Assembly: GCF_036689815.1 (NCBI RefSeq)
Contig: NZ_JBAHUR010000005.1
Coordinates: 47,501-111,500 of the forward strand
Origin: Magnetovibrio sp. PR-2
GTDB taxonomy: Bacteria > Pseudomonadota > Alphaproteobacteria > Rhodospirillales > Magnetovibrionaceae
Reading direction: 5' to 3'
Length of the DNA stretch: 64,000 nt
This document shows, piece after piece, positions 39,141-56,913 of the stretch; position 1 is the first letter of the stretch, and every line of letters begins with the position of its first letter. Position numbers and translations under genes: made by a program. Below the pieces are notes generated by a model. It had not been told where the DNA came from and did no database searches. It saw only the letters and a program-made list of their open reading frames with translations.

Positions 39141-39145
39141 CCAGT

Positions 39146-39303: not shown

Positions 39304-39454
39304 GTAGAGATCGGTTGCTCATCGATCACTCCCGTGTGTTCGAACCATATGGGATGTACACCTCGGGTGGCTTTGCCATTGTCCCCCGGTACCTTGTCGG
39401 GTCGGCCTTCGGGTCGGCCCGTTTTGGTTCAGTCCGGAAATCATCGTCGATCCG

Positions 39455-39460
39455 TAAATA
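39455..39460 (+). promoter_or_regulatory. TAAATA late promoter with ribosome-site hairpin, head module
   Basis: CCGTAAATACCTCT. TACCTCT (39459-39465) pairs with AGAGGTA (39477-39483), which contains the ribosome binding site GAGAGG of the gene at 39489. The predicted start, 39466, lies directly after the left arm, so promoter-born RNA cannot form this hairpin and read-through RNA can. Confidence 0.7.
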
Positions 39461-39488
39461 CCTCTAGCCGCTAATGAGAGGTAACGAG

Positions 39489-39782
39489 ATGGCCTTGAAC
39501 AATTCTTTCACTTTCACCGCCGCTGGGGAGACCAGTGACCCGATTGGGGTTCGATCCACATCGATCCCGATGACCATTCACGGGGCTGGTCCGACCTGGA
39601 CGGCTGGATCAACCACGGTCCGGATCGAAGCCAGTACCGATTTGACCGATTGGGTACCGCTGATGGACGCCGACGATCTGTTTCAGGAATCCTATTCCGG
39701 GACACTTTCTGGTTCGCACATTCGCGCCCGCGTACTCACGCTCAACCCTGGTGATCAGATCACGATCACCTTTAGCCGTTAA
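39489..39782 (+). CDS. Small putative virion protein
   Basis: 97 residues from the ATG at 39489 (GAGAGG upstream). All-beta character (ITIHGAG, TTVRIEASTDLTDWVPL, DQITITFSR). First gene of the rightward virion module. A head-decoration or fibre-like protein is plausible but not shown. Confidence 0.6.
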   Translation: MALNNSFTFTAAGETSDPIGVRSTSIPMTIHGAGPTWTAGSTTVRIEASTDLTDWVPLMDADDLFQESYSGTLSGSHIRARVLTLNPGDQITITFSR

Positions 39783-39793
39783 GGGGGTCGATC

Positions 39794-40009
39794 ATGTGTG
39801 GTAATCCGTTTTCCCCTCCTAAGCCGCCCGCACCGCCCCCGGTTCCCGATCCGGATACTGCGATCCGCGAACGCGAGGCCAAGGCCAAATCCGAAGCATT
39901 GACCGAGCGTAATAAGCGCGGCAAGTCCATTGCTGGTTCCCAGACCATCAATCAGAAGACTGGTTTTTTGGGCGTGGCTGATCTCCTCGGGGGGTCGCCG
40001 AAAGTCTAA
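39794..40009 (+). CDS. Small Pro-rich protein preceding portal
   Basis: 71 residues: MCGNPFSPPKPPAPPPVPDP, then a charged helix and a C-terminal LLGG segment. Small Pro-rich proteins in this place are common in podoviruses. Its stop overlaps the portal start (TAATGG). Confidence 0.65.
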   Translation: MCGNPFSPPKPPAPPPVPDPDTAIREREAKAKSEALTERNKRGKSIAGSQTINQKTGFLGVADLLGGSPKV

Positions 40010-41508
40010 TGGATAATGATCTTCTCAAACAACGCTGGTCCGAGGCCAAGACTCGTCGGGACGAATGGTTTTCCGAGATCGACGAGTCATTCCTGTACAC
40101 GTACCCGGAACTATCCGTGTACCGGGAAGAGGGACAATTGCCGGTCGAGGATGTGTTATTCGATTCCACACCGGCTGATGCTGTGTCCACCTTGGTCAGC
40201 AACGTACTCAATTATGGGATTCCGATTTCATCTCAGTGGGCCAAGGTCCAACCGGGCGAGATCATGCGCTCCCAGGGCGTCCCCGGTGATGTCGAGATCA
40301 TGCTGGACCATCTCAACCGGTCTTTGTTTGACGAGTTGAACCGGTCCAACTTCTATGTCGCGGCTGGTGATGCCATTCGCAACGCTGTGGTTTGCGGTAC
40401 CGGTGCGATGTCTGTCCGGCTTGAGCGCGACAACACGTTGCGGTTCACCTCTATCCCGATCAAGAACCTGTACGTGTTGGAGTCCCCGTCCGGTGTGCTG
40501 GATACCTTCTTTATCCAGAAGCGTGTCCGCGTTCACACCCTGGTTGATCAATACGAGAATCTGCCCAAATGGCTGAACGACTTGGCTCGGGACAAACCCG
40601 ATCAACGTGTATCCGTGTTGGAGGTGAGCTTGCCCACTCCGGACGGGTACGATCATCAATTCCTGCTCGAAAAGGACATGCATGTTCTCGAACAGCACAC
40701 ACGGGAATTCCCCTACATTCTGGGGTTCCGTTGGGAACGGATCGACGGCGAAGCCTGGGGCACAAGCCCGGTCCGGCACGCGTTGAACGACATCCGTGTA
40801 CTCAACAAGATGGTCGAGAACCAATTGAAAGCTTCCGACTTTGCCGCGTTCGGTGCGTGGTACGGCGATGATGAGCTGATCGCCGAGAATGGAATCACTC
40901 CGGGCTCGTACAATGTGACCCAGGGTACGATTCATCCTATTTCGTTTCCCGGAAACTTCGCAATAACCGAAAAAACGATTGGGTCGTATCAGAACCGAAT
41001 TCGTCGTCAACTGCTTGACGTCCAACTTCCCCCGGTAGACACCAATCGGGATCGGATCACCTCGACCGAGATTCAGGTCCGTCAAGGTGAATTCTTGCGC
41101 CGGATCGGTCCCGCCGCGTTGCGGCTTGAGCGAGAGTTTTTCCGTCCCGCTGTGAAGCTGGCCTTGGACTTGCTGATCGGGGTCGGGGTCCTACCGGACG
41201 TCCGCGTTGACGGCAAGGCGTTCCACATCGATGTCCAATCAGTCATCCGAAAGGGACACGTACTCGAACAGGTCGATAACTCGCTCCGGACCCTGTCGAT
41301 GTTGGCCCCGTTCGGTCAGATCGCGTTCCAGGGGATCGATTTGCAGGGGTGGATCAATTGGGTTTTGAAGGAAACCGATTTTCCGGCTGAGTTCATCCAA
41401 CCCGCTCAGGACGACAACCCGGATCAGATCACCACGATCATGAACATGCTGATGCAACAACAGGGCGTCTCGGGTGGACCGGCACAGCCCCCACCGGTTG
41501 AGCCGTAA
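40009..41508 (+). CDS. Portal protein (T7 gp8-like head-tail connector)
   Basis: 499 residues. Family features of podoviral portals are visible: an N-terminal DEWFSEIDESFLYTYPE block, VLFDSTPADAVSTLVSNVLN, the GTGAMSV segment with YVLESPSGVLDTFFIQ, and the late TSTEIQVRQGEFLRRIGPAALRLEREF region. It forms the dodecameric ring through which DNA enters and leaves the capsid. The stop codon TAA is itself part of a TAAATA element. Confidence 0.9.
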   Translation: MDNDLLKQRWSEAKTRRDEWFSEIDESFLYTYPELSVYREEGQLPVEDVLFDSTPADAVSTLVSNVLNYGIPISSQWAKVQPGEIMRSQGVPGDVEIMLDHLNRSLFDELNRSNFYVAAGDAIRNAVVCGTGAMSVRLERDNTLRFTSIPIKNLYVLESPSGVLDTFFIQKRVRVHTLVDQYENLPKWLNDLARDKPDQRVSVLEVSLPTPDGYDHQFLLEKDMHVLEQHTREFPYILGFRWERIDGEAWGTSPVRHALNDIRVLNKMVENQLKASDFAAFGAWYGDDELIAENGITPGSYNVTQGTIHPISFPGNFAITEKTIGSYQNRIRRQLLDVQLPPVDTNRDRITSTEIQVRQGEFLRRIGPAALRLEREFFRPAVKLALDLLIGVGVLPDVRVDGKAFHIDVQSVIRKGHVLEQVDNSLRTLSMLAPFGQIAFQGIDLQGWINWVLKETDFPAEFIQPAQDDNPDQITTIMNMLMQQQGVSGGPAQPPPVEP

Positions 41509-41511
41509 ATA
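41506..41511 (+). promoter_or_regulatory. TAAATA late-type promoter overlapping the portal stop
   Basis: GCCGTAAATAAACC. The predicted start is 41517, giving a leader of 39 bases that is rich in A and C with no obvious ribosome binding site. It would serve the scaffold operon. Confidence 0.5.
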
Positions 41512-41555
41512 AACCTGAACGCGAAACCAAACCCAAACCAGATCAGATCAAATCA

Positions 41556-41813
41556 ATGTCCGACACCTATTCGAAAAGGTTGACCCGTAAAGCGGTCACC
41601 ACATCCCAGTCCAGTAATGATCTCGTGCGAGCTTACGCCAGTGTGTTTGATACACCCGCTGGTGAACAGGTCATGCTTGATCTGCTTACCCAACTCAACC
41701 ACCCCAAGATCGACAACACCGCACCGGACCCGACCGCGATAGCGATCCGTCACGGACGTCGCGAGATCGTCGAGTACATCCTGAAAAAGGTCGATAAATC
41801 CGAGGAGCTTTAA
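41556..41813 (+). CDS. Bbp19-like phage protein
   Basis: 85 residues. YASVFDTPAGEQVMLDLLTQL and AIAIRHGRREIVEYILKKV match the pattern of small Bbp19-type proteins found beside portal genes in podoviruses. Function unknown. Two bases before the next gene. Confidence 0.7.
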   Translation: MSDTYSKRLTRKAVTTSQSSNDLVRAYASVFDTPAGEQVMLDLLTQLNHPKIDNTAPDPTAIAIRHGRREIVEYILKKVDKSEEL

Positions 41814-41815
41814 TC

Positions 41816-42109
41816 ATGGCTGCAAAACCAAAAACCAAAACCCCGGCCAAGACCAAACCGGTCGAGCCCCAAACCGATACCCCAGTCCAAGAACAAGAAC
41901 CGGCCCGGCCCAAGACCCCGACCAAACTGGAAAAGCTTGCGGCTGACCTACACGGGTTGATGGCTGAGCAGAAGATCGCTGTGCAACGGGCGGAAGACGC
42001 AAACGCGTCCCTGATTAAAGCACGGTCGGAAGTCACCCGATTGGATCAAGCCGTGAAACGCGGACAGACGATCTTGCTCGAACAAGTACGCCAAGGAGAA
42101 CCGAAATGA
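41816..42109 (+). CDS. Small helical phage protein
   Basis: 97 residues: a Lys/Pro/Thr-rich, disordered first half and a predicted coiled coil (LEKLAADLHGLMAEQKIAVQ). Overlaps the scaffold start by four bases. It may be a capsid-assembly helper. Confidence 0.6.
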   Translation: MAAKPKTKTPAKTKPVEPQTDTPVQEQEPARPKTPTKLEKLAADLHGLMAEQKIAVQRAEDANASLIKARSEVTRLDQAVKRGQTILLEQVRQGEPK

Positions 42110-42996
42110 CCGAAACCACCACGACCGATACCCAGACCCCAGAACACAAACAAGAACAAGCACCGGCCACGACCCAGGACGACACCGGGCTGGCCGGTAT
42201 GATTTCTGATCCGGGCCCGTCCCAGGACCAGACCCAAACCGATACAACTGTCACCGATACAACTGTCACCGAAACGACTGACACCACGATGGACGTCAGC
42301 ATGGGTGAACTTGATATCGCGGCGGTTCCTGAAAAGTTCATCGACAAGGATACCGGCACGTTGAAGATCAACGAACTGGTTGACTCGTATAAGAACGCCG
42401 AGTCCGAACTGGGAAAAGCCCGCCGCAACCCCCAGGGTGAAGTCCCCGACTCGTATGATTTCGAGTCCACGTTTGACGAGATCAACGCCCGGATGGATCA
42501 AGACGGAACCGGGTTCAAGATGGAACTGTTGGGCGAACAAGAACGTGCGGAATGGCAAGATACGTTCCGCGATCTCAATCTGCCCCAGGACACCGTCAAC
42601 GTGTTGCTGAACAAGTACGCGGATCGTGTCACTCAAATGATGGCCTCTATGGGTCCGCACGTCGATGCCCAACACGAAATCGGCACGCTCCAACGTGAAT
42701 GGGGACCCGAAGCGAAAAACCGCGCCGATCAGGTGGTTGACTTCGCCCGCACGTTACCGCCCGAGGTTTTCAACATGCCCCTCAAGAGCACGGCTGAGGG
42801 AATGAAGTTTTTGGAAACCGTCATGGCTACGAAGCGCGGACCGGGTGACGGTCCGGTCGATGCTGGTGCGGCCAACCCGACCGATATCAAGGCGGAAATT
42901 CAAACTCTCATGGACGACCCCGCGTACTGGACCGATACGGATCGCGGTCGTCAACTCCAATCCAAAGTCCAAAAACTATCTGCCCGGATCAGCTAA
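42106..42996 (+). CDS. Capsid scaffolding protein
   Basis: 296 residues, strongly acidic, with a low-complexity Thr/Gln/Asp-rich N-terminal third and helical remainder, directly before the major capsid gene. Position and composition are those of T7 gp9-like scaffolds. TVPEKFIDKDTGTLKINELV-type sequence (near 75-95) is common in this family. A 15-base repeat (GATACAACTGTCACC, twice) underlies part of the Thr-rich segment. Confidence 0.82.
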   Translation: MTETTTTDTQTPEHKQEQAPATTQDDTGLAGMISDPGPSQDQTQTDTTVTDTTVTETTDTTMDVSMGELDIAAVPEKFIDKDTGTLKINELVDSYKNAESELGKARRNPQGEVPDSYDFESTFDEINARMDQDGTGFKMELLGEQERAEWQDTFRDLNLPQDTVNVLLNKYADRVTQMMASMGPHVDAQHEIGTLQREWGPEAKNRADQVVDFARTLPPEVFNMPLKSTAEGMKFLETVMATKRGPGDGPVDAGAANPTDIKAEIQTLMDDPAYWTDTDRGRQLQSKVQKLSARIS

Positions 42997-43020
42997 TCCG
43001 GATCACCTGACACCCGTTTC

Positions 43021-43063
43021 GGGGCTCTTCCGTAAATACTTTTAGAACGACAAGAAGAGCCCC
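43021..43063 (+). promoter_or_regulatory. TAAATA late promoter inside a 10-bp inverted repeat, major capsid leader
   Basis: GGGGCTCTTC (43021-43030) and GAAGAGCCCC (43054-43063) are exact inverted repeats and enclose TAAATA (43033-43038). The predicted start, 43044, falls between the arms, so only read-through RNA would form the hairpin. The capsid leader is then about 130 bases and carries AGGAGG at 43160. Confidence 0.7.
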
Positions 43064-43172
43064 GCCAAACGAGGCCCAATCCCGCTCGGGACCCCTCCTA
43101 CTACGCGGCTTAACTCGCAACCGGTCGTCATAGCCAACGCGATTTAACCCGACAACATAGGAGGTATCCCCG

Positions 43173-44009
43173 ATGTCGAATACCGTTGATCAATCCTTCA
43201 TTACTCAGTTCCAATCCGAAGTCGTACACACGTTCCAACAGAACGGCTCAAAACTTCGCGACACCGTCTTTTACAAACCGAATGTGACCGGCTCCAGTGT
43301 GGAGTTCCCGGTCCTGGGTCAATCTGGTTCCCAAAAGAACCGTTCCCGACACGCCGATCTGGTCCCTCAGAACATCGGTCACAGCAACGCGACCGCACAG
43401 ATGGACAACTACGAAGCCATCGAACTCGTCGATGCCCTTGACGAATTCAAGACCAACATTGCGGTCCGTCAGGCGTACTCCAAATCAATTGTCCGACAAC
43501 TCGGTCGTGATATGGACAACATCATCATCGAAGCCGCGATTAATGGCGCGGGCCTGACCACGGGTGCTGCCGCTGCTTTTGACTTGGCGATGATGACCGA
43601 GATCAAAGCCATGGCCGGATCGAACGACTGGGACGAGGGCGACGATGACCGCTGGCTCGTTGTGACCCCGACCGTGATGAAACAACTCGACTCTCTCGAG
43701 CAGTTCATCAGCGCGGATTACGGCACATCCGACGCGGCACGAGCCGCACGTTACCCGAAACTTTACGGGTTCAACGTTGTGGAAAGTTCCCGTCTGGAAG
43801 ACGCCACCTTGTTCCAGACCACGGGTGGTCAGCACACCTGTCTGGCCTACCACAAGAACGCGCTTGGCCTGGGTACGGCACGCGACATCAACATTGTTGG
43901 TCCGGAACGGGTCCCGATGAAAAACGCGTGGTCCGTGATCGGCGAAATGTCCGCCGGTGGCACTGCGATCCTCTCGACCGGTGTGATCACGGTAGACGTG
44001 ACCATCTAA
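43173..44009 (+). CDS. Major capsid protein
   Basis: 278 residues, follows AGGAGG. Sequence fits an HK97-fold podoviral capsid: TVFYKPNVTGSSVEFPVLGQ, NATAQMDNYEAIELVDALDE and WLVVTPTVMKQLDS, with a C-terminal beta region. It follows the scaffold gene and is followed by a terminator, as expected for the most abundant transcript. Confidence 0.9.
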   Translation: MSNTVDQSFITQFQSEVVHTFQQNGSKLRDTVFYKPNVTGSSVEFPVLGQSGSQKNRSRHADLVPQNIGHSNATAQMDNYEAIELVDALDEFKTNIAVRQAYSKSIVRQLGRDMDNIIIEAAINGAGLTTGAAAAFDLAMMTEIKAMAGSNDWDEGDDDRWLVVTPTVMKQLDSLEQFISADYGTSDAARAARYPKLYGFNVVESSRLEDATLFQTTGGQHTCLAYHKNALGLGTARDINIVGPERVPMKNAWSVIGEMSAGGTAILSTGVITVDVTI

Positions 44010-44033
44010 GCGGTCTGAGCACATCAAGCTGAT

Positions 44034-44064
44034 AGGGCGGTCTTCGGACCGCCCTTTCCTTTTG
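44034..44064 (+). terminator. Intrinsic terminator after major capsid gene
   Basis: AGGGCGGTC-TTCG-GACCGCCCT with a UUCG tetraloop, followed by TTCCTTTT. It separates the capsid unit from the tail unit, which has its own TAAATA element 16 bases on. Confidence 0.85.
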
Positions 44065-44070
44065 GATCGG

Positions 44071-44076
44071 TAAATA
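44071..44076 (+). promoter_or_regulatory. TAAATA late promoter with ribosome-site hairpin, tail module
   Basis: TCGGTAAATACCTCT. CCTCT (44077-44081) pairs with AGAGG (44086-44090), the ribosome binding site of the gene at 44099. The predicted start is 44082, one base after the left arm. Confidence 0.7.
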
Positions 44077-44098
44077 CCTCTAAAGAGAGGAACCGTCG

Positions 44099-44683
44099 AT
44101 GTCTCAGACAAAGTTCGATATCGCATCCGGGGCGCTAACCCGGCTTGGCGGAAACACAATCCAGGATTTTTCCGAAGACTCGCACGAGGCGACGGTGGTC
44201 GCGAACATTTATGACTCGCTCTTCGAACAGGCCCTCACCGAATACAATTGGAACTTCGCGAAGAAAAACACCCAACTGAGCAAGACCACATCGACCCCGG
44301 TTGATCCAAATTGGTCGTACGAGTATGCGCTCCCGTCCGATTATCTCCGCGCGGTCCAGGTCATGAACACGGCGGGTGGTGGTCTGACCTACGCGTCGGA
44401 CTATTCGATTGAACAGCAATTCGTGTACGCGAACCAAGACGGTTTGCTGATGAAATATCTGTACAAACCGGACGAGTCCAATCTGCCCCCGTGGTTTGTC
44501 TATTACTTCCAATCTGCACTGGCCTATCACATTTGCGAACCGATCACCGGGGTGGGATCGACCAAAGAGGTGCTTTGGCGCGAACTCGACGACTACCGCC
44601 GCAAAGCCACAGTTCAGGACAAGCTTGAGAACCCGGCCCAATCCGCGTTCCCGATCAGCTCGCTGATTCTGGCTCGGAGGTAA
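44099..44683 (+). CDS. Tail tubular protein A (T7 gp11-like)
   Basis: 194 residues. The start SQTKFDIASGALTRLGGNTI, the block ALTEYNWNFAKKNTQL and the later WFVYYFQSALAYHI are characteristic of podoviral gp11-type proteins, which form the ring beneath the portal. It is followed five bases on by the gp12-like gene. Confidence 0.9.
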   Translation: MSQTKFDIASGALTRLGGNTIQDFSEDSHEATVVANIYDSLFEQALTEYNWNFAKKNTQLSKTTSTPVDPNWSYEYALPSDYLRAVQVMNTAGGGLTYASDYSIEQQFVYANQDGLLMKYLYKPDESNLPPWFVYYFQSALAYHICEPITGVGSTKEVLWRELDDYRRKATVQDKLENPAQSAFPISSLILARR

Positions 44684-44688
44684 CCGGG

Positions 44689-46596
44689 ATGCCTCGTTTC
44701 AAGATCGCGCAATTCAGTTTCAACGCCGGAGAGTTCGGCCCGTACGTAGACGGTCGATCCGATTTGGAGTCGTACTCGAAGGGCGCACAACAGATCGACA
44801 ACTACATGGTGATGTTGCAGGGCGGGCTCAGTCGTCGCCCCGGCTTCAAATACATTGATGACGCGGCTGACGCGGTCCGGTTGACCCGGTTTAGTTTCTC
44901 GGACGAACAACAGTACCTGTTCGTGTTGTTTGATCAAAACATCAAGATTTACCGCAACGATGTCGAGGTGTTTGACTTCAACCTCGACGGTCAGTCCGTC
45001 CCATATGTGGAGGATGACATTCCGAGTTTGCGGTTCGCTCAGTCGTACGACACCATGTATGTGTTCCACAAGGATTATCCGGTCCGTCAGATCGTCCGTA
45101 ATGGCGCACACGACGACTGGACCATCTCAGAGGTGAGCTGGTCGAACGAACCGTTCAACCGGATCAACAAGACGGACGGGTGTACCCCTTCGGGCACATC
45201 CGGGACGATCACCCTGACCCTGACCGGGGTTTGGTGGACTTCGGACCACGTCGGGAAACGGGTCAAGATCAACGACGGTGTCGTTCTGATTACGGGGTAT
45301 TCCAGCCCGACCCAGATCACCGGTACGGTCGAGACCAATCTGATCAACTCGAACCAGTCGTACGAATGGTCCGAAAACCCTTGGCAACCCCAGTTCGGGT
45401 ATCCCCGCTCCGGTACGATCCATCAAGATCGCCTCGTAATTGGCGGGTCCGCCTACTTGCCCCAAACCGTTTGGGGGACACGAACCGGCTCGTATGGGGA
45501 TTTCGACCAGTCCAAAACCGATGACGATTACGCATGGACCTTTGATATCAGTTCGAACGAGGTCGCGGTGATCCGGGACGTGTTCAGCATCAAGGGGGCT
45601 TTGCAGATTTTCACCAACACGACTGAGTTCGTCGATGACAGCACCCCGATCACCCCGTCCAACGTGAACCCGAAACCCCAGACCACCCATGGTGTGGGGG
45701 ATGTTCCGGTCCTATCTGTCGCGGGTGAAACCCATTTCATTTCCGGCAACCGGGATATGTTGCGGTCAATGTACTACTCGTTCGAGAACGACACATTCTT
45801 GGCGAAAAACTACACCGCGTTTGCCCACGACATTCTGTCCGGGGTGAACTCGCTCAGCTTTATCCGGACCTTTTCGGACTACCAGAGTTCGTTTTTGTTT
45901 CTCACACAGGACGACGGGGAGATGCGTTGCCTGATGCTGGAGCCGTCCCAACAAGCGTTCGGGTGGTCCCGTATCGTCTCCGATGGTACTTTTCTGGACA
46001 GTCAGGTCGTCGATGATGAACTGTACGTGTTGGTCCGCCGCAACGGTGTGATCCGGATTGAGGAGCTTATCCCGGACGCGTTCTGTCTGGACAGTTGGGT
46101 CGAGGACACAGATGTGTCTAAAACCAATTGGGGCCCGTACGCGCACTTGGCAGACCGAGAGGTACAAGTCGTCGTGTACAACGACGATGATGTCCCCCTC
46201 GAACATGGAACGGTCACGGCTGACCCCAGTGGAAACATCGTGCTGGACGAGGCGTACGCACGGATCGTGGTCGGGCTCCCTTACACGAGTACGGTAACCA
46301 CAATGCCGTTGCAGTTCGCGATCCGTCAACAACCCATGCGGGGTGAACGCATCCGGAAGATTCGCGCTTGGGTGAACGTGTACAACACACAGGACCTAGC
46401 CGTGGACGGGAAGGATATCCCGTTACGCCAATTCGGTGATGAACTTCTGGATCAAGGTGTCCCGGCCCAATCCAAGAACATTTCGGTTCGCATGGGCGGG
46501 ATCAGTACCGATCCGGTCGTGACCCTGTCCAATGAATCCGTATTCCCGGCCACCATTTTGAACCTCTCGACCGAGGTCAAGGTAGGTATGCCATGA
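44689..46596 (+). CDS. Tail tubular protein B (T7 gp12-like)
   Basis: 635 residues, mainly beta. QFSFNAGEFGPYVDGRSDLE, GGLSRRPGFKYIDD and FSFSDEQQYLFVLF are typical openings of gp12-like nozzle proteins. Middle blocks such as SYGDFDQSKTDDDYAWTFDI are also family features. It forms the tail nozzle. Its last four bases overlap the next start. Confidence 0.9.
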   Translation: MPRFKIAQFSFNAGEFGPYVDGRSDLESYSKGAQQIDNYMVMLQGGLSRRPGFKYIDDAADAVRLTRFSFSDEQQYLFVLFDQNIKIYRNDVEVFDFNLDGQSVPYVEDDIPSLRFAQSYDTMYVFHKDYPVRQIVRNGAHDDWTISEVSWSNEPFNRINKTDGCTPSGTSGTITLTLTGVWWTSDHVGKRVKINDGVVLITGYSSPTQITGTVETNLINSNQSYEWSENPWQPQFGYPRSGTIHQDRLVIGGSAYLPQTVWGTRTGSYGDFDQSKTDDDYAWTFDISSNEVAVIRDVFSIKGALQIFTNTTEFVDDSTPITPSNVNPKPQTTHGVGDVPVLSVAGETHFISGNRDMLRSMYYSFENDTFLAKNYTAFAHDILSGVNSLSFIRTFSDYQSSFLFLTQDDGEMRCLMLEPSQQAFGWSRIVSDGTFLDSQVVDDELYVLVRRNGVIRIEELIPDAFCLDSWVEDTDVSKTNWGPYAHLADREVQVVVYNDDDVPLEHGTVTADPSGNIVLDEAYARIVVGLPYTSTVTTMPLQFAIRQQPMRGERIRKIRAWVNVYNTQDLAVDGKDIPLRQFGDELLDQGVPAQSKNISVRMGGISTDPVVTLSNESVFPATILNLSTEVKVGMP

Positions 46597-47060
46597 CTCT
46601 AGAACAGTTTGAAATCCGAGAAGTCCGCGAATCCGATATCCACTACATGTGGGCGAACATGCGCGCATCTGATCGGGCCGAAATGTCCGTGAGCGGGCTG
46701 ACCCCGGATAACTACTTAGACCGGATGTCTCGAACATTCCAAGAGGTCGTCTTGCACGAGGGCGTCCCCATGGTGCTGTACGGGGCAAACCCTTCGGTTG
46801 CCGCTCTGATCTTTGCCCTGATCGGTACTGATCAGCTTGATCGGTTTCCCAAGACGTTCACCCGGTCCAGTCGTTCGTATGTGCGCAACCGTCTGCGCGA
46901 ACACTTCCCGATGACCGGGCTGGTGTTTCCAGACGTGGAGAATACGAAAACTATCCGTTGGCTTGATCGGATCGGATTCGAACAGGTCCGCCCGGTTAAA
47001 GCCCCAAACGGGGCATTCATGCTGATGGAATACAAGGGAGTACGATCTGATGTGTTTTGA
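46593..47060 (+). CDS. Internal virion protein A-like (T7 gp13-type, GNAT-like)
   Basis: 155 residues. REVRESDIHYMWANMRASDR and TKTIRWLDRIGFEQ suggest a degenerate GNAT fold, as in T7 gp13-type proteins. It may help package the internal core rather than acetylate. It overlaps the next gene by 11 bases. Confidence 0.75.
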   Translation: MTLEQFEIREVRESDIHYMWANMRASDRAEMSVSGLTPDNYLDRMSRTFQEVVLHEGVPMVLYGANPSVAALIFALIGTDQLDRFPKTFTRSSRSYVRNRLREHFPMTGLVFPDVENTKTIRWLDRIGFEQVRPVKAPNGAFMLMEYKGVRSDVF

Positions 47061-47517
47061 TCCGATCACAATTGGTGCTTTGACGATCACCGCAATGGAC
47101 GCGGTGATGGTTGGGGCCGGTTTGGCAGCAACCATGCAAGGGATGAACAGCGCCAAAGCCCAAGCAAAAGCCCAGGCACAACAGTACGAATATCAAGCCC
47201 AAGTCACGGAATTGGATTCCGCACTACGCGTGGACGAACAACGTCGTAAAGCCGCTGCCCTGACCTCGACCCAACGGGCCCTATACGGGGCGTCGGGTGC
47301 ATCGGGCGGTTCTGCAACGGTTCTTGACGTCCTTGGGTCCACCCATGAGAACGCCGGTTTTAACATCTACAACGAACAACTTGCCGGACAACTTGGGGCC
47401 GGAGCAAGTCGTACCAGTGCGGGTGCGGCCATTGCGAACGGTCACAATAGTGCGGTTGGGTCAATGATGAACTTCGGGGTCGGCTTGGCTACCCAAATGA
47501 ACTCGAAAAAAGCATAA
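47050..47517 (+). CDS. Internal virion protein B-like (T7 gp14-type)
   Basis: 155 residues: a hydrophobic start, then an Ala/Gln-rich coiled coil (KAQAKAQAQQYEYQAQ) and a Gly/Ala-rich end with ALYGASGASGGSATVLDVL. These features are shared by gp14-like proteins, which are ejected and form the outer-membrane pore. Confidence 0.82.
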   Translation: MCFDPITIGALTITAMDAVMVGAGLAATMQGMNSAKAQAKAQAQQYEYQAQVTELDSALRVDEQRRKAAALTSTQRALYGASGASGGSATVLDVLGSTHENAGFNIYNEQLAGQLGAGASRTSAGAAIANGHNSAVGSMMNFGVGLATQMNSKKA

Positions 47518-47531
47518 GGAGGGAGGCCCAC

Positions 47532-49766: not shown

Positions 49767-51403
49767 TGTCTGATTTTAACTTTTTGATCCCGATGGACTA
49801 CGAGGATGATCCGGACCACTGGGATCGGATGAAACACCTCTCGATCACCTCTACTGGTGACGCAATGGACGCGGCTGTAGACCGGGCTTGGTACTACAAC
49901 CCGATGCAATCGGTTCGACGCATGTGGGAATTCGATGACGCTCGATCCGAGACGTCCCGTTTCCTGACCGAGGACGAGTACAAGGAGTCGGAATATGCCC
50001 GTCCAGGTGTGTTCTTTGACGACGGTGTCAAAGAGAGCGTTGCCGCGATCACCGCAAAACGGTTTGATGAGCGGGCACAGTTCAACGACGTTATCAATCG
50101 GGCCCCGGACGGGTTTTGGACCCAGGCCGGAATCATCGGTACGGAATTCGCGGTCAGCATGGCTGACCCGTTCAACTTGGCAACCGCACTGATTCCCGGC
50201 CTGGGTCTGGGCTTGCGTGCCGGTTCATTTGGTGCAGCCGCCGCACGTGGTGCGACTGCGGGTGTGATCGGTGCAGCCGCTGTTGAACCGTTGATCTATA
50301 CCGCTGCCCGTCAAGAGCAAGACAACGATTACACCGCGTTGGACTCGTTGATGAACATGACCGTGGGCGGTGTCTTGGGTGGATCGTTTGGTGTGGCGGG
50401 TAAAAAGTTTTCGGACTGGCGTGCAAGCCGGGCCAAGACCGATCCCGAAGCGCGCCAACTCAATCCGCTTGATTTTCGTGAATCGATCACCCCGGACACA
50501 CACATCGGTGCATTCCGAACCGCCCTGGCACAAATCGCCTCAGATCGTGCCGTCGATGTCAGCACAGTATTGGAGTTAGACCCGATTAGTGGTGCACATG
50601 CCCGTTCGGGTGCTACCGGCAACCCCAAACGGTTTGTCCCGATTGATGCTGAATTTGAGACCGAGATCGGTGCTAAGCGTGCACTGACGGCACTTCGGGG
50701 AAACGGTATCAAACTGGGGGGTTCTGGAACGGTTCGCGTATCTGGTGATCGTGCCGTACGTATCCAACAGACCCCAGGCGGCAAGTGGACCATACAGGTC
50801 GAGACCGCAAGCCAACCCGTAACCAACACGAACGGAAAAATCCGCGCATTCACCACGGAAGAACAAGCCGTGAAATTCGTTCGTGAATCCGGTGAACGTG
50901 GTTTGCGTCACGTCGAAATGGGCGACGGCTTGTGGATGGTTCTTCGTAACAGCACCCCGGACGATGCCCGTGTTCAGGTTGATCTCAACCGGACGGTTCG
51001 GGCAAAAGCCAATTTGGACGAACCGGTTGACGTCGCATACGAACGGATCGTTCAGGAAGCCGGTGGGGAACCCGTATTGAGCCAAACAGGTTCACCGAAA
51101 CACGTTCTGGGTCCAGATGAAATTCGTGAACGCGCGCGGGCCAACCACGCGAGTCGTGTTGGTCCGGGTGCAATGGACGACGATCCGGTTGAACTTCATT
51201 CCGTAGATAACAGCATGGATGAATTGGTCAAACAGGTCGAACAGGTCGATGCTGATCTAGCCGCGATTGAACGAAGCAATCCGGAATTTCTTGACGAAAT
51301 TCGCGACGAGATGACTGAGGTCGATCTCGAATTGAAACGATTGGACGATTTTGAACAAGCCGCGTCGATTGCGATTGCGTGCGGTATTGGGAAACAAATA
51401 TGA
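49766..51403 (+). CDS. Internal virion protein with Gly/Ala-rich hydrophobic segment
   Basis: 545 residues. A hydrophobic Gly/Ala-rich stretch (about 130-205, with AAAARGATAGVIGAAAVEPL) could cross a membrane upon ejection, a property of gp16-like core proteins. The end is an acidic coiled coil. It overlaps the next gene by four bases. T7 gp16 counterparts are much larger; here the role seems divided between this and the next product. Confidence 0.72.
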   Translation: MSDFNFLIPMDYEDDPDHWDRMKHLSITSTGDAMDAAVDRAWYYNPMQSVRRMWEFDDARSETSRFLTEDEYKESEYARPGVFFDDGVKESVAAITAKRFDERAQFNDVINRAPDGFWTQAGIIGTEFAVSMADPFNLATALIPGLGLGLRAGSFGAAAARGATAGVIGAAAVEPLIYTAARQEQDNDYTALDSLMNMTVGGVLGGSFGVAGKKFSDWRASRAKTDPEARQLNPLDFRESITPDTHIGAFRTALAQIASDRAVDVSTVLELDPISGAHARSGATGNPKRFVPIDAEFETEIGAKRALTALRGNGIKLGGSGTVRVSGDRAVRIQQTPGGKWTIQVETASQPVTNTNGKIRAFTTEEQAVKFVRESGERGLRHVEMGDGLWMVLRNSTPDDARVQVDLNRTVRAKANLDEPVDVAYERIVQEAGGEPVLSQTGSPKHVLGPDEIRERARANHASRVGPGAMDDDPVELHSVDNSMDELVKQVEQVDADLAAIERSNPEFLDEIRDEMTEVDLELKRLDDFEQAASIAIACGIGKQI

Positions 51404-53922
51404 GCACAAAGAAAAAATGTCGCGTCATGATCCAGAACGCTGGATTGGACCTGTCCGAAAAAGACATCAATGATCTCGTCACGAAACTTGACCGTGACGC
51501 GCAACGTGCGCGCCATTTCGGGGACACCCGCACGTTCGAAGAGGTCGCAATGGAACGGTTCGAAGAGCGGATCAGCGAAAAGCGAAAGGAAGTTTTCGTC
51601 AAGAAGCGTCGTGTCCAGTTCAAGGCGTTGGCCCAAAAGCGCGCGTTCGATTATATCGACCGATACCGCGAAGGTGTTTATGAACAGACCGGACAAGAGG
51701 CCAACTATTACGACGCGTTCAAAGCGTACTTGGTCGGCACAGAGGACGGGATGGCGTTTGGCTCTCGTCAATCCGTGGATGCGCGCCAAAAAGCATTGGA
51801 GCGAGAATTCGCGGGCCGATTTCTGAACGACCTTGAGAAAGCCGACTTGACCGAGATTGCGGTCCGAGGTGACTTGGATCGGGATGTCGCACGTGAAATG
51901 TTTGGCGGACTTGACGAGTCTGTAACCGGCAACAAGCAGGCGTTCGAGTACGCGAAGATTCTACGCCGGTCCCAGGATCACATTCTGGCTCGGATGAACC
52001 GGGCCGGTGCATGGATCGATCAGGACCCCAGCTACATCATCCGTCAACAGCATGACCGCCAAAAGATGTTCAAGCATGGCGAACAGGCTTGGATCGACCA
52101 CATCAAAGGTAAACTGGACTGGAACCGGATCGCCCGTGAACAAGATTTGCTCCCGGAAGAGTACGACCGGTTCCTCTCGAATGTTTGGAAAAACCTGACC
52201 ATCGGGAAAAAATTCGAGGGCCGGTCCATGGCTGGTTCCGGTAACCTTGCGGAACGCGTATCGGCGGAACGGATTCTCCATTTCAAGGACGCGTACTCGT
52301 TTTTGGACTACCACATGGGCGATCAGTTTGGTGCACAGACCACATTGTCCCAGACCAGCACGCACGCGATTTATCAGGCCGCGAACAACACCGGCTTGAT
52401 GGAATCGTTCGGGACCAACCCGGATGATTTGTTCGAGACCATCGTGGGGAAAATCGGAAACGCGTTGCGTGATGATCCCACAAGTGCCCGTGCGTTCAGC
52501 CGGAAACGGGGACAGCTTGACGACTATTGGAACCAGATCACCGGTAAGGTCAACCAGACCAACAACCCGACCAGGGCCGCGATTGGTTCGGACATTCGCG
52601 CGCTCCAATCCATGAGCAAATTGGGCGGGGCGTTGTTGGCGTCGTTCGCGGACTTCGGCACGAAAGCCTCAGAGTTGAATTTCCAGGGCATGGGGCTGAC
52701 CCAATCTTGGGCTAAGTCGCTCACTGGTTTCACTCGTAACCTTGGGGATGGCGAACGCGACGAGGCGTTGCGTTTGATCGGTATCGGGATGGACGGAATC
52801 CTCGGTCGTATTCATGCGCGCTTTCACGGGGTTGATGAGGTCCCCGGTCGGATGTCGCGCCACCTGAATACGTTCTTTCGGTTGAATGGTCTGCAATGGT
52901 GGACCGAGGCACAACAGGCCGGTACGGTCAAAATTTTATCCGCGCACCTGGGCAATCACGCGGACAAGCCCATGGCTGAACTAAACCAGAGTATGCAGCG
53001 AGTCATGCGCATGTACGGGTTTGATGAGGCCGAATGGAATCTACTCCGGACGCAAGCCGTCAAAACAATCGACGGTCAAAAGTATTTGGTGACCGATCCG
53101 CTACGCAAACTGTCCAGTCAAAAGATTCGCACTCACTTGGTCGAACAACGCGGTCTTGATCCCAAAGAGGTCAGCCCGGCTGAAATTGCGCGGTATCGTG
53201 ACGACCTGGAAACTCGCGTCCGTTCGTACTTTGAAGACTCCGCAACACACACGATCCCGGAGCCGAGCGCGAAAGAGCAAGCTTGGCTGACCCAGGGGAC
53301 CGATCCCGGTTCGATTGTGGGCATGGCGATGCGGTTTATAACTCAATTTAAAGCGTTCCCGGTCAGCTACACCAGCAAGACCCTGGGACGTCAAATTCGC
53401 GGTCGTGGCCTGCAATACGGGCCAAAGGTTTGGCTCCAGAATGGGGGGGCGTCCGGTGTTGCTCACCTGATCGCGGCCAGTACCGTCATGGGTTACCTGA
53501 GTATGACCGCAAAAGATTTTGTAGCCGGTCGTACCCCGCGCGACCTGAGCAAGCCAGAGACTTGGCAGGAGTCCCTATTGAGGGGTGGCGGACTGGGCAT
53601 TTACGGAGATTTCCTGTTCGGGCAATTCAACCGGTACGGATCGAGCCCGCTTGAGGTGCTCACCGGTCCGACCATCGGAATGGGCTCGCAATTGCTCCGG
53701 GCCTACGGGAAGGTCCTCGAAGGTGATCCCGAAGGTGGGGCCGAACTCGGATTCAAGACCGGTGTCGGAATGGTCCCATATGGGAATATGTTTTACACAA
53801 AGTTGGCTGTGGATTATTTGATCCTGAACGAGATCAACGAGATGATCAATCCCGGTTACAAGACACGGATGCAACTTCGCGCGCAAGATCGGGGTCAAGA
53901 CTATTGGCTCCCGCCAAACTGA
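51400..53922 (+). CDS. Large internal virion protein
   Basis: 840 residues from the ATG at 51400, which overlaps the preceding stop. Strongly helical; the N-terminal 100 residues are very charged. A later part (about 620-700) has GSIVGMAMRFITQFKAFPVS and VAHLIAASTVMGYLSMTAKD, which suggest membrane-active segments. Position between core proteins and tail fibre makes it an ejected core protein, comparable to the C-terminal part of T7 gp16. Confidence 0.78.
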   Translation: MSTKKKCRVMIQNAGLDLSEKDINDLVTKLDRDAQRARHFGDTRTFEEVAMERFEERISEKRKEVFVKKRRVQFKALAQKRAFDYIDRYREGVYEQTGQEANYYDAFKAYLVGTEDGMAFGSRQSVDARQKALEREFAGRFLNDLEKADLTEIAVRGDLDRDVAREMFGGLDESVTGNKQAFEYAKILRRSQDHILARMNRAGAWIDQDPSYIIRQQHDRQKMFKHGEQAWIDHIKGKLDWNRIAREQDLLPEEYDRFLSNVWKNLTIGKKFEGRSMAGSGNLAERVSAERILHFKDAYSFLDYHMGDQFGAQTTLSQTSTHAIYQAANNTGLMESFGTNPDDLFETIVGKIGNALRDDPTSARAFSRKRGQLDDYWNQITGKVNQTNNPTRAAIGSDIRALQSMSKLGGALLASFADFGTKASELNFQGMGLTQSWAKSLTGFTRNLGDGERDEALRLIGIGMDGILGRIHARFHGVDEVPGRMSRHLNTFFRLNGLQWWTEAQQAGTVKILSAHLGNHADKPMAELNQSMQRVMRMYGFDEAEWNLLRTQAVKTIDGQKYLVTDPLRKLSSQKIRTHLVEQRGLDPKEVSPAEIARYRDDLETRVRSYFEDSATHTIPEPSAKEQAWLTQGTDPGSIVGMAMRFITQFKAFPVSYTSKTLGRQIRGRGLQYGPKVWLQNGGASGVAHLIAASTVMGYLSMTAKDFVAGRTPRDLSKPETWQESLLRGGGLGIYGDFLFGQFNRYGSSPLEVLTGPTIGMGSQLLRAYGKVLEGDPEGGAELGFKTGVGMVPYGNMFYTKLAVDYLILNEINEMINPGYKTRMQLRAQDRGQDYWLPPN

Positions 53923-53929
53923 TCCAGCC

Positions 53930-53968
53930 CGATAAATACCCTTGAATCAAAATTGAGGGTATTTATCG
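53930..53968 (+). promoter_or_regulatory. TAAATA late promoter with 13-bp hairpin over the tail-fibre ribosome site
   Basis: CGATAAATACCCT (53930-53942) is the exact reverse complement of AGGGTATTTATCG (53956-53968), leaving a 13-base loop. The right arm holds the ribosome binding site GAGGGT of the tail-fibre gene (ATG at 53969). The predicted transcription start after TAAATA (53933-53938) is 53944, inside the loop, so the left arm is missing from promoter-born RNA. Confidence 0.78.
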
Positions 53969-54994
53969 ATGTCCGTACTTTCCCAGGACCCGCGCCTGCA
54001 ATATACAGCCGCTGTTGATCAGACCATATTCACAATCGCATTCCGTTTCCTACAGGATGACGACGTGGACGTGTATGTGGACGGCACTCTACAGACCGAT
54101 GGTGTCGATTACAATCTGAGCGGTGCGGGTGACGTCACCGGGGGCGAATGCACATTTGTGTCCCCGATGACCGGCGGGGAAGAGGTTACGATCTATCGCA
54201 ACATGGACCTTTCGCGTTCCGCTGATTACCAGCAAAAGGGGCCCTTCCGGTCATCTGTGGTGAACAACGATCTTGACCGTATATGGATGGCAATGCAGGG
54301 GCTGGACGAGTCGATCACGCGGACGATTAATTTCGCGGTGACCTCTCGCCTGGATTTGCCGATTGATTTCCCTGACCCGCTAGCGGATCACTATATCGGG
54401 TGGGATCACGCCGGGGAAAACTTGGTCAATAAAGATTTGAATGGTCTGGTTCAAGTCCCGGTAAGTGAATTTTTCGAACCCGTGTTGTTGGCGAATGACT
54501 ACGCGGATTTCCTCGATCTGGTCGGCGCATCCCCGTTCATGCAAACCCTTTTACAAGCCAACAACACTACTGAGTTCCAAGGCGCTGTAGGTACGATCAA
54601 TGCGTACTACGCGGATTTGGCCGAAATGTACCGCGCACAATTCGAGATCAAACCCGGCACAGTCGTGCGGTTGTCAGATCATGATGTGTACGAGATCGAG
54701 CCCACCAACGGGTACGCAGATGACGCGGTGTTCGGGGTGATCAGTACCGAACCGCACACGATCATGAACCATATGAAAGACCGGTCAGAGCATTGGTTGC
54801 CGGTCGCCCTTACCGGACGGGTTCCGTGTCGCGTGATCGGTCCTGTGAAGAAAGGTGATCGACTGGTCCCCAGTCAACATCCGGGTGTTGGTCAATCCGG
54901 TCAACCGGGACGAGGTGTGTTCGCCCGCGCGCTTGAGACCAAAACATCAGGCGAAGTTGGTCTTATTGAGGTCGCCATCGTCACCACAAACTAA
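53969..54994 (+). CDS. Tail fibre protein with T7-tail N-terminal domain
   Basis: 341 residues. The first 150 fit the phage T7 tail-fibre attachment domain (QYTAAVDQTIFTIAFRFLQD, TVYRNMDLSR-like IYRNMDLSRSADYQ, NNDLDRIWMAMQGLDESI). The C-terminal third, with VFGVISTEPHTIMN and VPCRVIGPVKKGDRLV, resembles a beta-rich terminal domain of phage tail proteins, sometimes linked to self-cleavage. It should anchor to the tail and reach the host. It is short for a complete fibre; the protein at 56914 may be its partner. Confidence 0.85.
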   Translation: MSVLSQDPRLQYTAAVDQTIFTIAFRFLQDDDVDVYVDGTLQTDGVDYNLSGAGDVTGGECTFVSPMTGGEEVTIYRNMDLSRSADYQQKGPFRSSVVNNDLDRIWMAMQGLDESITRTINFAVTSRLDLPIDFPDPLADHYIGWDHAGENLVNKDLNGLVQVPVSEFFEPVLLANDYADFLDLVGASPFMQTLLQANNTTEFQGAVGTINAYYADLAEMYRAQFEIKPGTVVRLSDHDVYEIEPTNGYADDAVFGVISTEPHTIMNHMKDRSEHWLPVALTGRVPCRVIGPVKKGDRLVPSQHPGVGQSGQPGRGVFARALETKTSGEVGLIEVAIVTTN

Positions 54995-55003
54995 CTCGCT
55001 CGG

Positions 55004-55009
55004 TAAATA
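55004..55009 (+). promoter_or_regulatory. TAAATA late promoter with start-codon hairpin, terminase
   Basis: TCGGTAAATATAGATA. ATAGATA (55009-55015) pairs with TATCTAT (55035-55041), which covers the first two bases of the ATG at 55040. The predicted start is 55015, so most of the left arm would be missing from promoter-born RNA. Confidence 0.62.
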
Positions 55010-55039
55010 TAGATAAACCTGAGTGAGGTGCATCTATCT

Positions 55040-55381
55040 ATGCCACGACTACGCGACCCCGGAAAGCTACTCGACGATGAACTAAAACAAAACATTCGTG
55101 ATGAGATTCACGAGTATGCCCGGCTATACGAGTTCACCGCTGCGATCCCGAAACCGGAAATTCCCGAAAATCCGACCGAGTCAGACTTTGACAAACTCGT
55201 CGCCTACTCAAAGGTGCGGACGTTTTATTCGAACAGCAAACGCGCTCAACTTCGCTTGATCACGGATATGGACAAAATCTCCGGTGGTCAACTCTTGGGC
55301 GGAAACAAAGTTCCGAATCCGGATCGAGAAGCCGACGAACTCGACGCGATGTTGAAAGACGTCGAGGACCGCCTCGGATGA
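55040..55381 (+). CDS. Terminase small subunit candidate (T7 gp18-like)
   Basis: 113 residues from the ATG at 55040 (GAGGTG upstream). Helical, charged, directly before and four bases overlapping the large subunit, as T7 gp18 is before gp19. Sequence similarity is not obvious by eye, so the call rests on size and place. It would recognise concatemeric DNA for packaging. Confidence 0.72.
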   Translation: MPRLRDPGKLLDDELKQNIRDEIHEYARLYEFTAAIPKPEIPENPTESDFDKLVAYSKVRTFYSNSKRAQLRLITDMDKISGGQLLGGNKVPNPDREADELDAMLKDVEDRLG

Positions 55382-56883
55382 AACTAGCTGAGATCGACTT
55401 CCCCCGGTTCGTCGCGATTTACCAAAAGATGATCGGCTATGACACCCCGGATATTCACATCGAAATTGCCCGCTGGTTGGAGGCGACCGATGGACAAGAT
55501 CAACGTCTCTTACAAGTGTTCCGCAACGCAGGCAAATCAAATCTGGTTTGTCTTTATGTGGCTTGGAAGCTGGTGCGAGACCCGAACACGACCATCCTGG
55601 TGATGTCCGCGAAGTATCCACTGGCTGTGAAGAACGCAGAATTCATTAAAAAGATTATCGAAGAACACCCCATTTGTCAGAAGGTGCTCAAGCCGGACCA
55701 GAAAAACTGGGCTAAGGAAAGTTTCTCGGTTCAGCGCCCGGTTGCGCGACGTGATCCGTCTGTCTGCGTGAGTTCAGTTGATTCCGGGTTTACCGGGTAT
55801 CACGCCGATTTGATCTTGGCCGATGACATCGAGATTCAAAATAACGTCGAAAATGAAGAAATGCGCGCGAAGCTGCGCAAACGGGTTCAGGATTTTGACT
55901 CGGTTGCACCCGCGACATTGTTTGTGGGGACACCACACTGTGTGGAGACGATCTACAATGATATCCAGGAATGGGACGGAATTGAGATTCTTCGGATTCC
56001 GTTTTGGACCGAATTACCCAATGGGGTGAAAAAACTGGCTTGGCCGGAACGGTTTCCGATGGACTGGTACAAACGGTACAAGTCAAAGAAAACATTGAAT
56101 TATGTGAACAGTCAGTTGTTCTTGATCCCGTCTGATGTCCGGGAAACCCTGATTGATCCTGATTTGGTTGACACTGTCGATTGCGAACTTGAGACCGTTG
56201 AGATTTTTGCACCCCTGGGTAAGCTATCGAAGCCCGAGCTGCGTTTACGGATCGGTGATGAAACCGTTCGCGTGACCGGGTACGGCACATACTATGATCC
56301 GGCCTTGGGTATTGAAGGTCGCGACAACGCGGTGTTCGCGTTTGCGGTCCGGACCGAACACGGTGACATCATTGTGTTGCATTGCGAGACCCTTCCCGCG
56401 ACCTCACCTCAAACCGGCTGGCAACCTCAACTTGACAGAATTATTGATATCGCTCTGGAGTACGGACTGCCCTCGGTCACGGTCGAGGGCGGTAACACAA
56501 ATGTCACGTTGGACACGGACCTGAAAGCAGCCGCGTCCCGTCGGGGTATCCGGTTGGGCACGAACAAAGTCAGCCGTAACAAGATCAACAAAAAGGTCCG
56601 TATCGCGGAAACGTTGGAGCCGTTGGTCCGGGGCAAACGGCTTAAGGTTCACCCACGGGTACACGAGCACGGACGGTTCAACGGGGAGCTTGGGGAGTTT
56701 CCGGGCGGGAAAAGGGATGACCACATTGACGCCACCACGGGCGCACTCAATCAGATGGACTTGAATCCGTCCGTGCTGACCAAGGGGCTAAAAAAGATCA
56801 AGTCCGCACTGTCCGGGATGTCCGCCCCCCGCCAAGTCGTTGGTAAGCCCGGTTTGGGCAGACGGCTGCGCGGTCACCGATAA
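55378..56883 (+). CDS. Terminase large subunit (T7 gp19-like)
   Basis: 501 residues. ATPase part: Walker A variant VFRNAGKSNL (near 48-57), like the FRGVGKS form of T7 gp19, and Walker B with ADLILADDIE. Nuclease part: RIGDETVRVTGYGTYYDPALG and later acidic residues in GKRDDHIDATTGAL, which are RNase H-like metal ligands. It pumps and cuts DNA at the portal. The stop TAA is part of the next TAAATA element. Confidence 0.92.
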   Translation: MKLAEIDFPRFVAIYQKMIGYDTPDIHIEIARWLEATDGQDQRLLQVFRNAGKSNLVCLYVAWKLVRDPNTTILVMSAKYPLAVKNAEFIKKIIEEHPICQKVLKPDQKNWAKESFSVQRPVARRDPSVCVSSVDSGFTGYHADLILADDIEIQNNVENEEMRAKLRKRVQDFDSVAPATLFVGTPHCVETIYNDIQEWDGIEILRIPFWTELPNGVKKLAWPERFPMDWYKRYKSKKTLNYVNSQLFLIPSDVRETLIDPDLVDTVDCELETVEIFAPLGKLSKPELRLRIGDETVRVTGYGTYYDPALGIEGRDNAVFAFAVRTEHGDIIVLHCETLPATSPQTGWQPQLDRIIDIALEYGLPSVTVEGGNTNVTLDTDLKAAASRRGIRLGTNKVSRNKINKKVRIAETLEPLVRGKRLKVHPRVHEHGRFNGELGEFPGGKRDDHIDATTGALNQMDLNPSVLTKGLKKIKSALSGMSAPRQVVGKPGLGRRLRGHR

Positions 56884-56886
56884 ATA
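56881..56886 (+). promoter_or_regulatory. TAAATA late promoter with ribosome-site hairpin, last virion gene
   Basis: ACCGATAAATACCTTC. ATACCTTC (56884-56891) pairs with GAGGGTAT (56901-56908, one G-U), which holds the ribosome binding site of the gene at 56914. The predicted start is 56892, one base after the left arm. Confidence 0.68.
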
Positions 56887-56913
56887 CCTTCGTAATCTTT
56901 GAGGGTATCCCAC

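Follow-up and report, generated by a model that had tools for sequence, protein, structure and literature searches.

Can a late promoter carry, within its own bases, a lock on the translation of the gene that it serves? The question is raised by a stretch of 64,000 nucleotides (nt; here the window) from Magnetovibrio sp. PR-2, which is part of contig C5 of a bacterial genome of 3.75 Mb and holds an integrated phage at approximately 32.7-61.8 kb (bounds set by us). Late genes of this prophage follow TAAATA promoters, and in about five of these promoters the sequence that runs up to the RNA start can pair with the ribosome site or start codon just downstream. The reading that we favour, with moderate confidence, is that such promoter-embedded hairpins lock the ribosome sites of late genes in read-through RNA, as part of a late switch of the gp55 type.

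What marks these promoters? Within 32701-61800 there are 10 copies of TAAATAC versus 3 of its reversal, and for TAAATACC the counts are 8 and 0. Ten of the 12 TAAATA words look like promoters, and all ten precede genes except the one at 39135, which precedes a likely small RNA. A TAAATA promoter core thus appears to stand before the late genes. Base 1 after the word is C at eight of the ten (TAAATAC) and base 2 at seven, also where nothing pairs, whereas bases 5 and 6 are a pyrimidine and a purine at all ten. Because this pyrimidine-purine step is found throughout, the RNA start was placed at base 6. T4 late RNA likewise starts a few bases past TATAAATA. The two words set aside are at 53965 (minus strand), which lies in the palindrome at 53933 and fits the rule for bases 5 and 6, and at 60585 (minus strand), which lies in the integrase gene and does not fit.

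Stems were sought between the promoter, counted from 4 nt upstream of TAAATA through the inferred start, and the region up to the start codon, and the longest are listed. All five arm pairs reported in a preliminary description of this DNA are present where it had placed them, each with 28-36 nt from TAAATA to the start codon:

39398-39421, plus strand: terminator-like site before the 39455 promoter (terminator scan)
39455-39460, plus strand: TAAATA core, inferred start 39466
39459-39465, plus strand: left arm TACCTCT in the promoter spacer, 7 bp with 39477-39483
39477-39483, plus strand: right arm, including the Shine-Dalgarno sequence (SD) of the gene with presumed start 39489
44034-44055, plus strand: terminator-like site before the 44071 promoter (terminator scan)
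44071-44076, plus strand: TAAATA core, inferred start 44082
44077-44081, plus strand: left arm CCTCT, 5 bp with 44086-44090
44086-44090, plus strand: right arm AGAGG, the SD of the tail protein gene at 44099
53933-53938, plus strand: TAAATA core, inferred start 53944
53930-53944, plus strand: left arm including the whole TAAATA, 15 bp with two GU pairs (13 perfect)
53954-53968, plus strand: right arm, which runs from the SD up to, but not into, the ATG of the tail-fibre gene at 53969
55004-55009, plus strand: TAAATA core, inferred start 55015
55008-55015, plus strand: left arm TATAGATA, 8 bp with one GU pair
55035-55042, plus strand: right arm covering the start codon at 55040 of the gene before the large terminase (TerL) gene
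56881-56886, plus strand: TAAATA core, its TAA being the TerL stop codon, inferred start 56892
56884-56892, plus strand: left arm ATACCTTCG, 9 bp with two GU pairs
56900-56908, plus strand: right arm with the SD of the gene at 56914

The final base of the left arm is either the one just before the inferred RNA (39455 and 44071) or the first base of that RNA (53933, 55004, and 56881), which agrees with the claim that transcription starts at or just past them. At these five genes, a predicted late promoter would therefore lie directly upstream of the ribosome site, and the left arm, within or adjoining the promoter, would be missing from late RNA. The start site is inferred, and the results hold for starts at bases 3-9 after TAAATA.

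How much would the arms matter? The measure used was the cost of opening positions -16 to +3 of the gene in read-through as against late RNA, values that vary with flank length. With 25 nt of upstream and 30 nt of coding flank, the difference is largest at 53969 (20.4 kcal/mol in read-through and 5.4 in late RNA, or 15.0), followed by 56914 (14.7 and 4.7, or 10.0), 39489 (16.4 and 8.1, or 8.3), 55040 (13.0 and 6.5, or 6.4) and 44099 (4.5). The probability that the SD is unpaired rises from 0.00-0.14 in read-through RNA to 0.22-0.90 in late RNA over the five sites, and from 0.05 to 0.65-0.90 at 44099. Folding both transcripts for each site, the check that had been proposed, gave a mean read-through surplus of 4.7-6.5 kcal/mol for eight late-promoter genes versus 1.6-2.5 for 26 other genes of the window (17 prophage and 9 host genes, with that of the major capsid protein (MCP) counted here and not among the eight). 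On resampling this background, 0 or 1 of 5000 draws reached the late-gene mean in each of six settings (p at most 0.0002).

The pairing also depends on which promoter stands before which gene. Over nine sites the summed extra opening cost is 47.0 for cognate pairs versus 24.1 (standard deviation 6.9) for permuted upstreams (p 0.0004, or 0.0019 without the fibre site). The summed stem score at six sites is 44.5 against a shuffle mean of 32.5, and none of 2000 shuffles reaches it. With automatic gene choice and an SD filter, five of six genes differ by at least 4 kcal/mol (background p 0.00035), with z 3.0 over shuffles that keep TAAATA and the spacer composition and 6.5 over promoters of other genes. 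The SD and open reading frame (ORF) filter removes 41506, 43033, and 33123 (minus strand), which were counted as ungated. Without the SD filter, z for seven genes is 2.4 over shuffles and 3.4 over swapped promoters. Single sites fall below p 0.05 for stem length (53933 and 55004), in the SD-filtered analysis (55004 and 56881) and on upstream permutation (53933, 55004, and 56881), whereas 39455 and 44071 alone are not significant. Taken together, the pairing at the five sites exceeds chance, more weakly so without the SD filter.

What if the stems are only a by-product? Spacers that are pyrimidine-rich for promoter reasons, next to purine-rich ribosome sites, would form short stems without selection. 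This is a possible if doubtful explanation. It fits the finding that 48% of shuffles reach 4 kcal/mol, that a mean of 4.7 of 7.6 kcal/mol persists after the spacer is permuted and the flank shuffled, and that upstreams of other promoters give 3.0 as compared with 1.9 for background genes. It also fits the C preference at bases 1 and 2, shared by unpaired sites, and the lack of significance of 39455 and 44071 by themselves. However, cognate pairs beat both controls, with and without the SD filter and on permutation. Moreover, the stem at 55004 uses TATAGATA and covers a start codon, and that at 53933 takes in all of TAAATA, so CCTCT-type spacers by themselves explain neither. Since shuffles retain 4.7 of 7.6 kcal/mol against a background of 1.9, roughly half of the excess can be put down to composition and the fixed TAAATA, and the remainder to specific pairing. 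The earlier claim that the promoter spacer doubles as anti-ribosome-site sequence is thus borne out in so far as cognate pairs beat shuffles, but much of the effect survives shuffling of spacers and flanks.

What would read such promoters? The prophage contains a candidate:

33178-33726, plus strand: gp55-type late sigma factor, 182 amino acids, GTG start (PHROGs, PDB, and Pfam matches)

This ORF matches the late sigma family phrog_234 (5.4e-25), phrog_12791 (3.1e-18) and the solved PDB chain 7d7c, named 'gp55' (E 3e-6). Its match to Sigma70_r2 (1.7e-4) is under the Pfam cut-off. Judged by this homology the prophage encodes a gp55-type late sigma, and the presence of TAAATA promoters would follow from its being encoded in the same element. 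The preliminary description had recognised promoters of the T4 kind and did not name the sigma gene. By homology and motif, the factor would direct host RNA polymerase to the TAAATA late promoters. The likeness to the T4 pair of gp55 and TATAAATA lies in the sigma type and the TAAATA core. In contrast to T4, the prophage mostly has C(G)(G/A)TAAATAC, and its structural genes are podoviral. No gp33 co-activator or gp45 sliding clamp was recognised with PHROGs and Pfam among the 26 prophage ORFs scanned, in a scan of 27 distinct ORFs (20 by PHROGs, 10 by Pfam, and 3 by both) that left further small ORFs outside it. These findings point to a T4-type late switch, sigma and promoter, in a T7-like podoviral prophage.

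How might the locks act? RNA arriving from upstream bears both arms and is predicted to fold shut. RNA started at the promoter would lack the left arm entirely or for the most part, and opening the ribosome site of this RNA should cost less. Each locked gene would then be translated mainly from its own promoter. This makes a prediction, namely that the same gene is translated poorly or well depending on where its RNA began.

Two roles can be proposed. At the first structural cistrons, the lock may add to the terminator-like sites and help to keep the genes silent in the lysogen and early on. The sites at 39398-39421 and 44034-44055 are the best-paired plus-strand sites of the terminator scan, although its total is near chance (24 sites versus 21.2) and single calls are weak. 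Because these sites precede 39455 and 44071, little read-through RNA is expected there. Inside the late cluster, the fibre, packaging and last genes may be insulated from the long late RNA, in which case the lock would set dose rather than time. The genes at 53969, 55040 and 56914 directly follow late genes with no terminator-like site between, so that the RNA reaching them should be mostly late RNA. It was suggested earlier that the hairpins form a genome-wide timing device. This suggestion finds support only in part. Of the nine promoters linked to genes, five seem to be gated, and for 39455 this requires a gene start at 39489. The three strongest hairpins sit inside the late cluster without a preceding terminator-like site, which does not suit a purely early/late clock.

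The place of the three strongest hairpins at cistron borders of the late cluster also bears on a different explanation. T7-type intercistronic hairpins act in RNA processing, stability or transcription pausing, and the hairpins here could do the same, closure of the ribosome site being incidental. The 53933 hairpin, with 16 predicted pairs, would suit such a role. Still, we think this unlikely. Four of the five stems are 5-9 bp, which is short for RNase III, none was scored as a terminator on the plus strand, and the right arms fall on an SD or start codon each time. As terminators, the hairpins at 53933, 55004, and 56881 were rejected, since the scan found no terminator-like site on the plus strand at any of them.

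Perhaps the palindrome at 53933 is instead a two-way promoter. Its second TAAATA, at 53965 on the minus strand, is followed by CCCTC and then A, which gives TAAATACCCTY-R on both strands. However, a minus-strand start would make RNA antisense to the gene ending at 53922, and the other four hairpins are without a second TAAATA on the minus strand. This is a very improbable substitute for a translation lock at that site.

Several observations, in the prophage and in other phages, weigh against locks embedded in late promoters. Four of the nine gene-linked promoters are not clearly gated. Bare TAAATA is not in excess in 32701-61800 (12 versus 12 reversed), and the prophage has no copy of the T4 octamer TATAAATA, whose sole match in the window, at 62087-62094 (minus strand), lies outside the prophage. 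The promoters therefore look T4-like rather than of the T4 consensus. Two in-frame ATGs could start the gene behind 39455, at 39489 (preferred, with SD AGAGG) and 39474 (no SD). With the latter the difference becomes -1.5 and the lock is lost. Without the SD filter, which takes this gene at 39474, four of seven genes reach the threshold (background p 0.078). In late RNA, the SD is unpaired with a probability of only 0.22-0.53 at four of the five sites, and the sites at 39489 and 44099 still cost approximately 8 kcal/mol to open. The start codons at 44099 (0.01 to 0.03) and 55040 (0.25 to 0.14) remain closed in late RNA, and the one at 53969 goes from 0.70 to 0.74 in one setting and from 0.67 to 0.07 in the other. 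Because the SD is freed and start codons mostly are not, the predicted lock works mainly via the SD and is not all-or-none. The claim that read-through RNA is shut and late RNA open thus stands for the first half, in that read-through RNA costs more to open, but late RNA is only partly opened. Finally, no close relative was found in which the arms could be compared.

Does the same arrangement occur elsewhere? T4 gene e works in the way the preliminary description had said. Its long early transcripts fold into an inhibitory structure, which lowers lysozyme synthesis 100-fold, and its late transcripts are without the 5' part of that structure (PMC3014915). According to a second review, I-TevI, I-TevII, I-TevIII, segB, and mobE are arranged like gene e (PMC2988022). 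The leaders of T4 e, soc, 49 and I-TevI resemble the prophage sites in having the left arm in the late-promoter region and the right arm on the ribosome site, with long RNA closed and late RNA lacking the left arm (PMC3014915; PMC2988022). The T4 leaders are those of individual genes in a large virulent myovirus, and for e and I-TevI there are experiments. By contrast, the window has a small podoviral prophage with predicted locks at five of its nine gene-linked late promoters, three of these locks within the late cluster. The hairpin lock would be a variant of the known T4 mechanism.

On the measure used here, T4 I-TevII scores 13.0 and presumed gene e 10.4-10.9 at its two promoters. T4 soc scores 0.6, which belongs with the counterpoints above, as does the finding that 7 of 22 genes behind TATAAATA reach 4 kcal/mol (background 0.15, p 0.17). 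A stricter filter gives 6 of 20 (p 0.031, z 3.2 over shuffles) but z only 1.7 over swapped promoters. Without the SD filter p is 0.016. In phage Phi1, 3 of 13 genes reach 4 kcal/mol (z 2.2 over shuffles and 3.2 over swaps), although p against background is 0.22. Sinorhizobium phage phiM12 shares with the prophage a biased word (CTAAATA, 26 versus 9 reversed) and arms that close the ribosome site beyond shuffles, but is a 194.7 kb phage. Four of its 10 genes reach 4 kcal/mol (p 0.031, z 3.7 over shuffles and 4.5 over swaps), or 5 of 12 without the SD filter (p 0.0061, z 5.7). Among its sequences (L260-L269), arms that close ribosome sites are found at several TAAATA sites, for example L263 12743 (minus strand), L265 13264 (plus), L268 3791 (minus) and L266 1160 (plus). 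In cyanophage MA10 the motif stands out most clearly (CTAAATA, 45 versus 3), but there is no significant excess of locks. Its 45 sites yield five genes with the SD filter, one of which reaches the threshold, and 32 without (5 of 32, p 0.75, z 1.3).

Two further elements give no significant excess either. In another genome of the order (G428), a siphovirus-like contig encodes a gp55 40.5% identical over 111 amino acids, and 1 of its 9 genes reaches 4 kcal/mol (p 0.52). The region concerned (G428:C52:84000-123999, L247-L248) has matches to gp55, clamp loader, polymerase, portal and tape measure along with TAAATA sites, one of which (L248:5987) is palindromic and adjoins an SD-like GGAGG. In G677 (L117), a GC-rich viral contig in which TAAATACC occurs 15 times against 0 for a control word, the count is 0 of 7 (p 0.88). 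This fragment has no phrog_234 match, but control genomes were also without one, so absence is not established. Behind its site at 1735 stands a long perfect hairpin, which extends to an ATG. A CCTCT..AGAGG site at 5186 (minus strand) was rejected as a lock, the following ATG opening only three codons. Some gp55-type phages thus show an excess of locks and others do not, and the density is highest in the window. This suggests that the translation lock described for a small number of T4 genes has counterparts in further gp55-type phages, where it can be counted from sequence. One might tentatively go further. In some of these phages, late-promoter spacers may be double-coded as anti-ribosome-site sequence, so that the promoter carries its own translation lock, the window prophage going furthest by tying late-cluster cistrons to their own promoters. 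We regard this as an uncertain extension, and the lack of excess over the 32 genes of MA10, which has the clearest motif, speaks against it.

What kind of element carries these sites? The portal/head-tail adaptor, MCP, tail proteins, internal virion proteins, tail fibre and TerL are encoded within 40009-56883 (PHROGs), in an order that we take to be like that of T7-like podoviruses. A radical SAM protein is encoded at 35213-36103 (minus strand; Pfam PF04055, 3.6e-10), and the integrase lies near the end:

60501-61739, minus strand: integrase (Pfam)

No 12-base direct repeats that could be attachment sites were found between 31350-32760 and 61740-62400, and no Rfam family reached its gathering score in 31000-62000. 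The prophage resembles podoviral prophages of the host order in its MCP, with relatives in 149 of 297 genomes (own included; approximately 24-40% identity among the matches listed), and in its TerL, with relatives in 11 of 18 genomes of the host family (own included). Two more elements with related TerL and MCP are present in its own genome (G000), on contigs C12 and C8. It differs from such prophages in that just two of the 317 genomes of the order, its own among them, have a strong gp55 match, the other match lying in the siphovirus-like contig, with two weak matches besides. It also differs in that, by eye, no promoter-like TAAATA array surrounds other TerL genes in stretches of 2.4-4.4 kb. 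A protein search of 385 genomes of the class found the gp55-type gene in its own genome only, and a 73-base piece of its DNA had no match in plasmids. In the phage collection, 721 records match gp55, and the best 100 rows (some records twice) all come from records longer than 150 kb. Among the literature matches listed, no title or abstract opening reported a late system of the gp55 type from a podovirus or a prophage.

The search for relatives was extended to DNA and to viral contigs. No near DNA match of the prophage was found in phages, no relatives of TerL or of the 847-amino-acid virion protein in viral_contigs, and none at all in genome_contigs, searched twice. The 847-amino-acid protein has 112 phage relatives, all below 60% identity (25.6-34.2% in the best 40 rows), which makes them too distant for arm comparison. 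For gp55, a protein search of viral_contigs found one contig (L046, 35% identical), and an alignment search confirmed at least 287 relatives among the best 600 stretches. Of the gp55 loci, 80 were kept, partial and up to approximately 20 kb, and none had a tblastn match (E 1e-3) to 18 other prophage proteins. GTAAATACCTCT-N(3,20)-AGAGG occurs in 97 stretches of viral_contigs, near chance by our own rough estimate. Among the loci with podoviral matches, L060, L078, L092, L103, L110, and L138 have one stretch in common, L094 has another site and L141 is a further locus.

The promoters without a clear lock are as follows:

33118-33123, minus strand: TAAATA of the M15 endolysin-like gene at 32759-33112 (minus strand), inferred start at the A of the ATG
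33806-33811, plus strand: TAAATA before the gene at 33828
41506-41511, plus strand: TAAATA before the gene at 41556, SD not seen, its TAA being the portal stop codon (folding)
43033-43038, plus strand: TAAATA of the MCP gene, no read-through-specific lock (folding)

The opening difference at 33828 is 1.5 kcal/mol with the flank lengths used for the five sites above, and ranges from 0.4 to 5.2 across settings (0.4-2.7 in the background comparison). It is -0.3 to 2.5 kcal/mol at 41556, -0.1 to 0.2 for the MCP gene and 0.1 to 4.9 for the endolysin-like gene (0.1-3.0 in the background comparison). At 33112-33123 (minus strand), TAAATACCCGT is directly followed by the ATG of the endolysin-like gene, so its late mRNA would be leaderless.

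The MCP promoter has features of its own. An inverted repeat of 10 bp, CGGGGCTCTT/AAGAGCCCCG, at 43020-43029/43056-43065 (plus strand), holds this promoter in its loop. The 129-nt leader (43044-43172, plus strand) hides its own SD, TAGGAGG pairing with CCTCCTA, in late and read-through RNA alike, and costs approximately 15 kcal/mol to open. The promoter without a gene (39135-39257, plus strand) would start RNA at 39146 and is followed by a strong terminator hairpin ending in TCTTTTTT. The predicted late small RNA is 112 nt long with a fold of -40.2 kcal/mol, holds the anti-SD-like word TCTCCTC and has AACCGGTC and GGACCCCT in common with the MCP leader.

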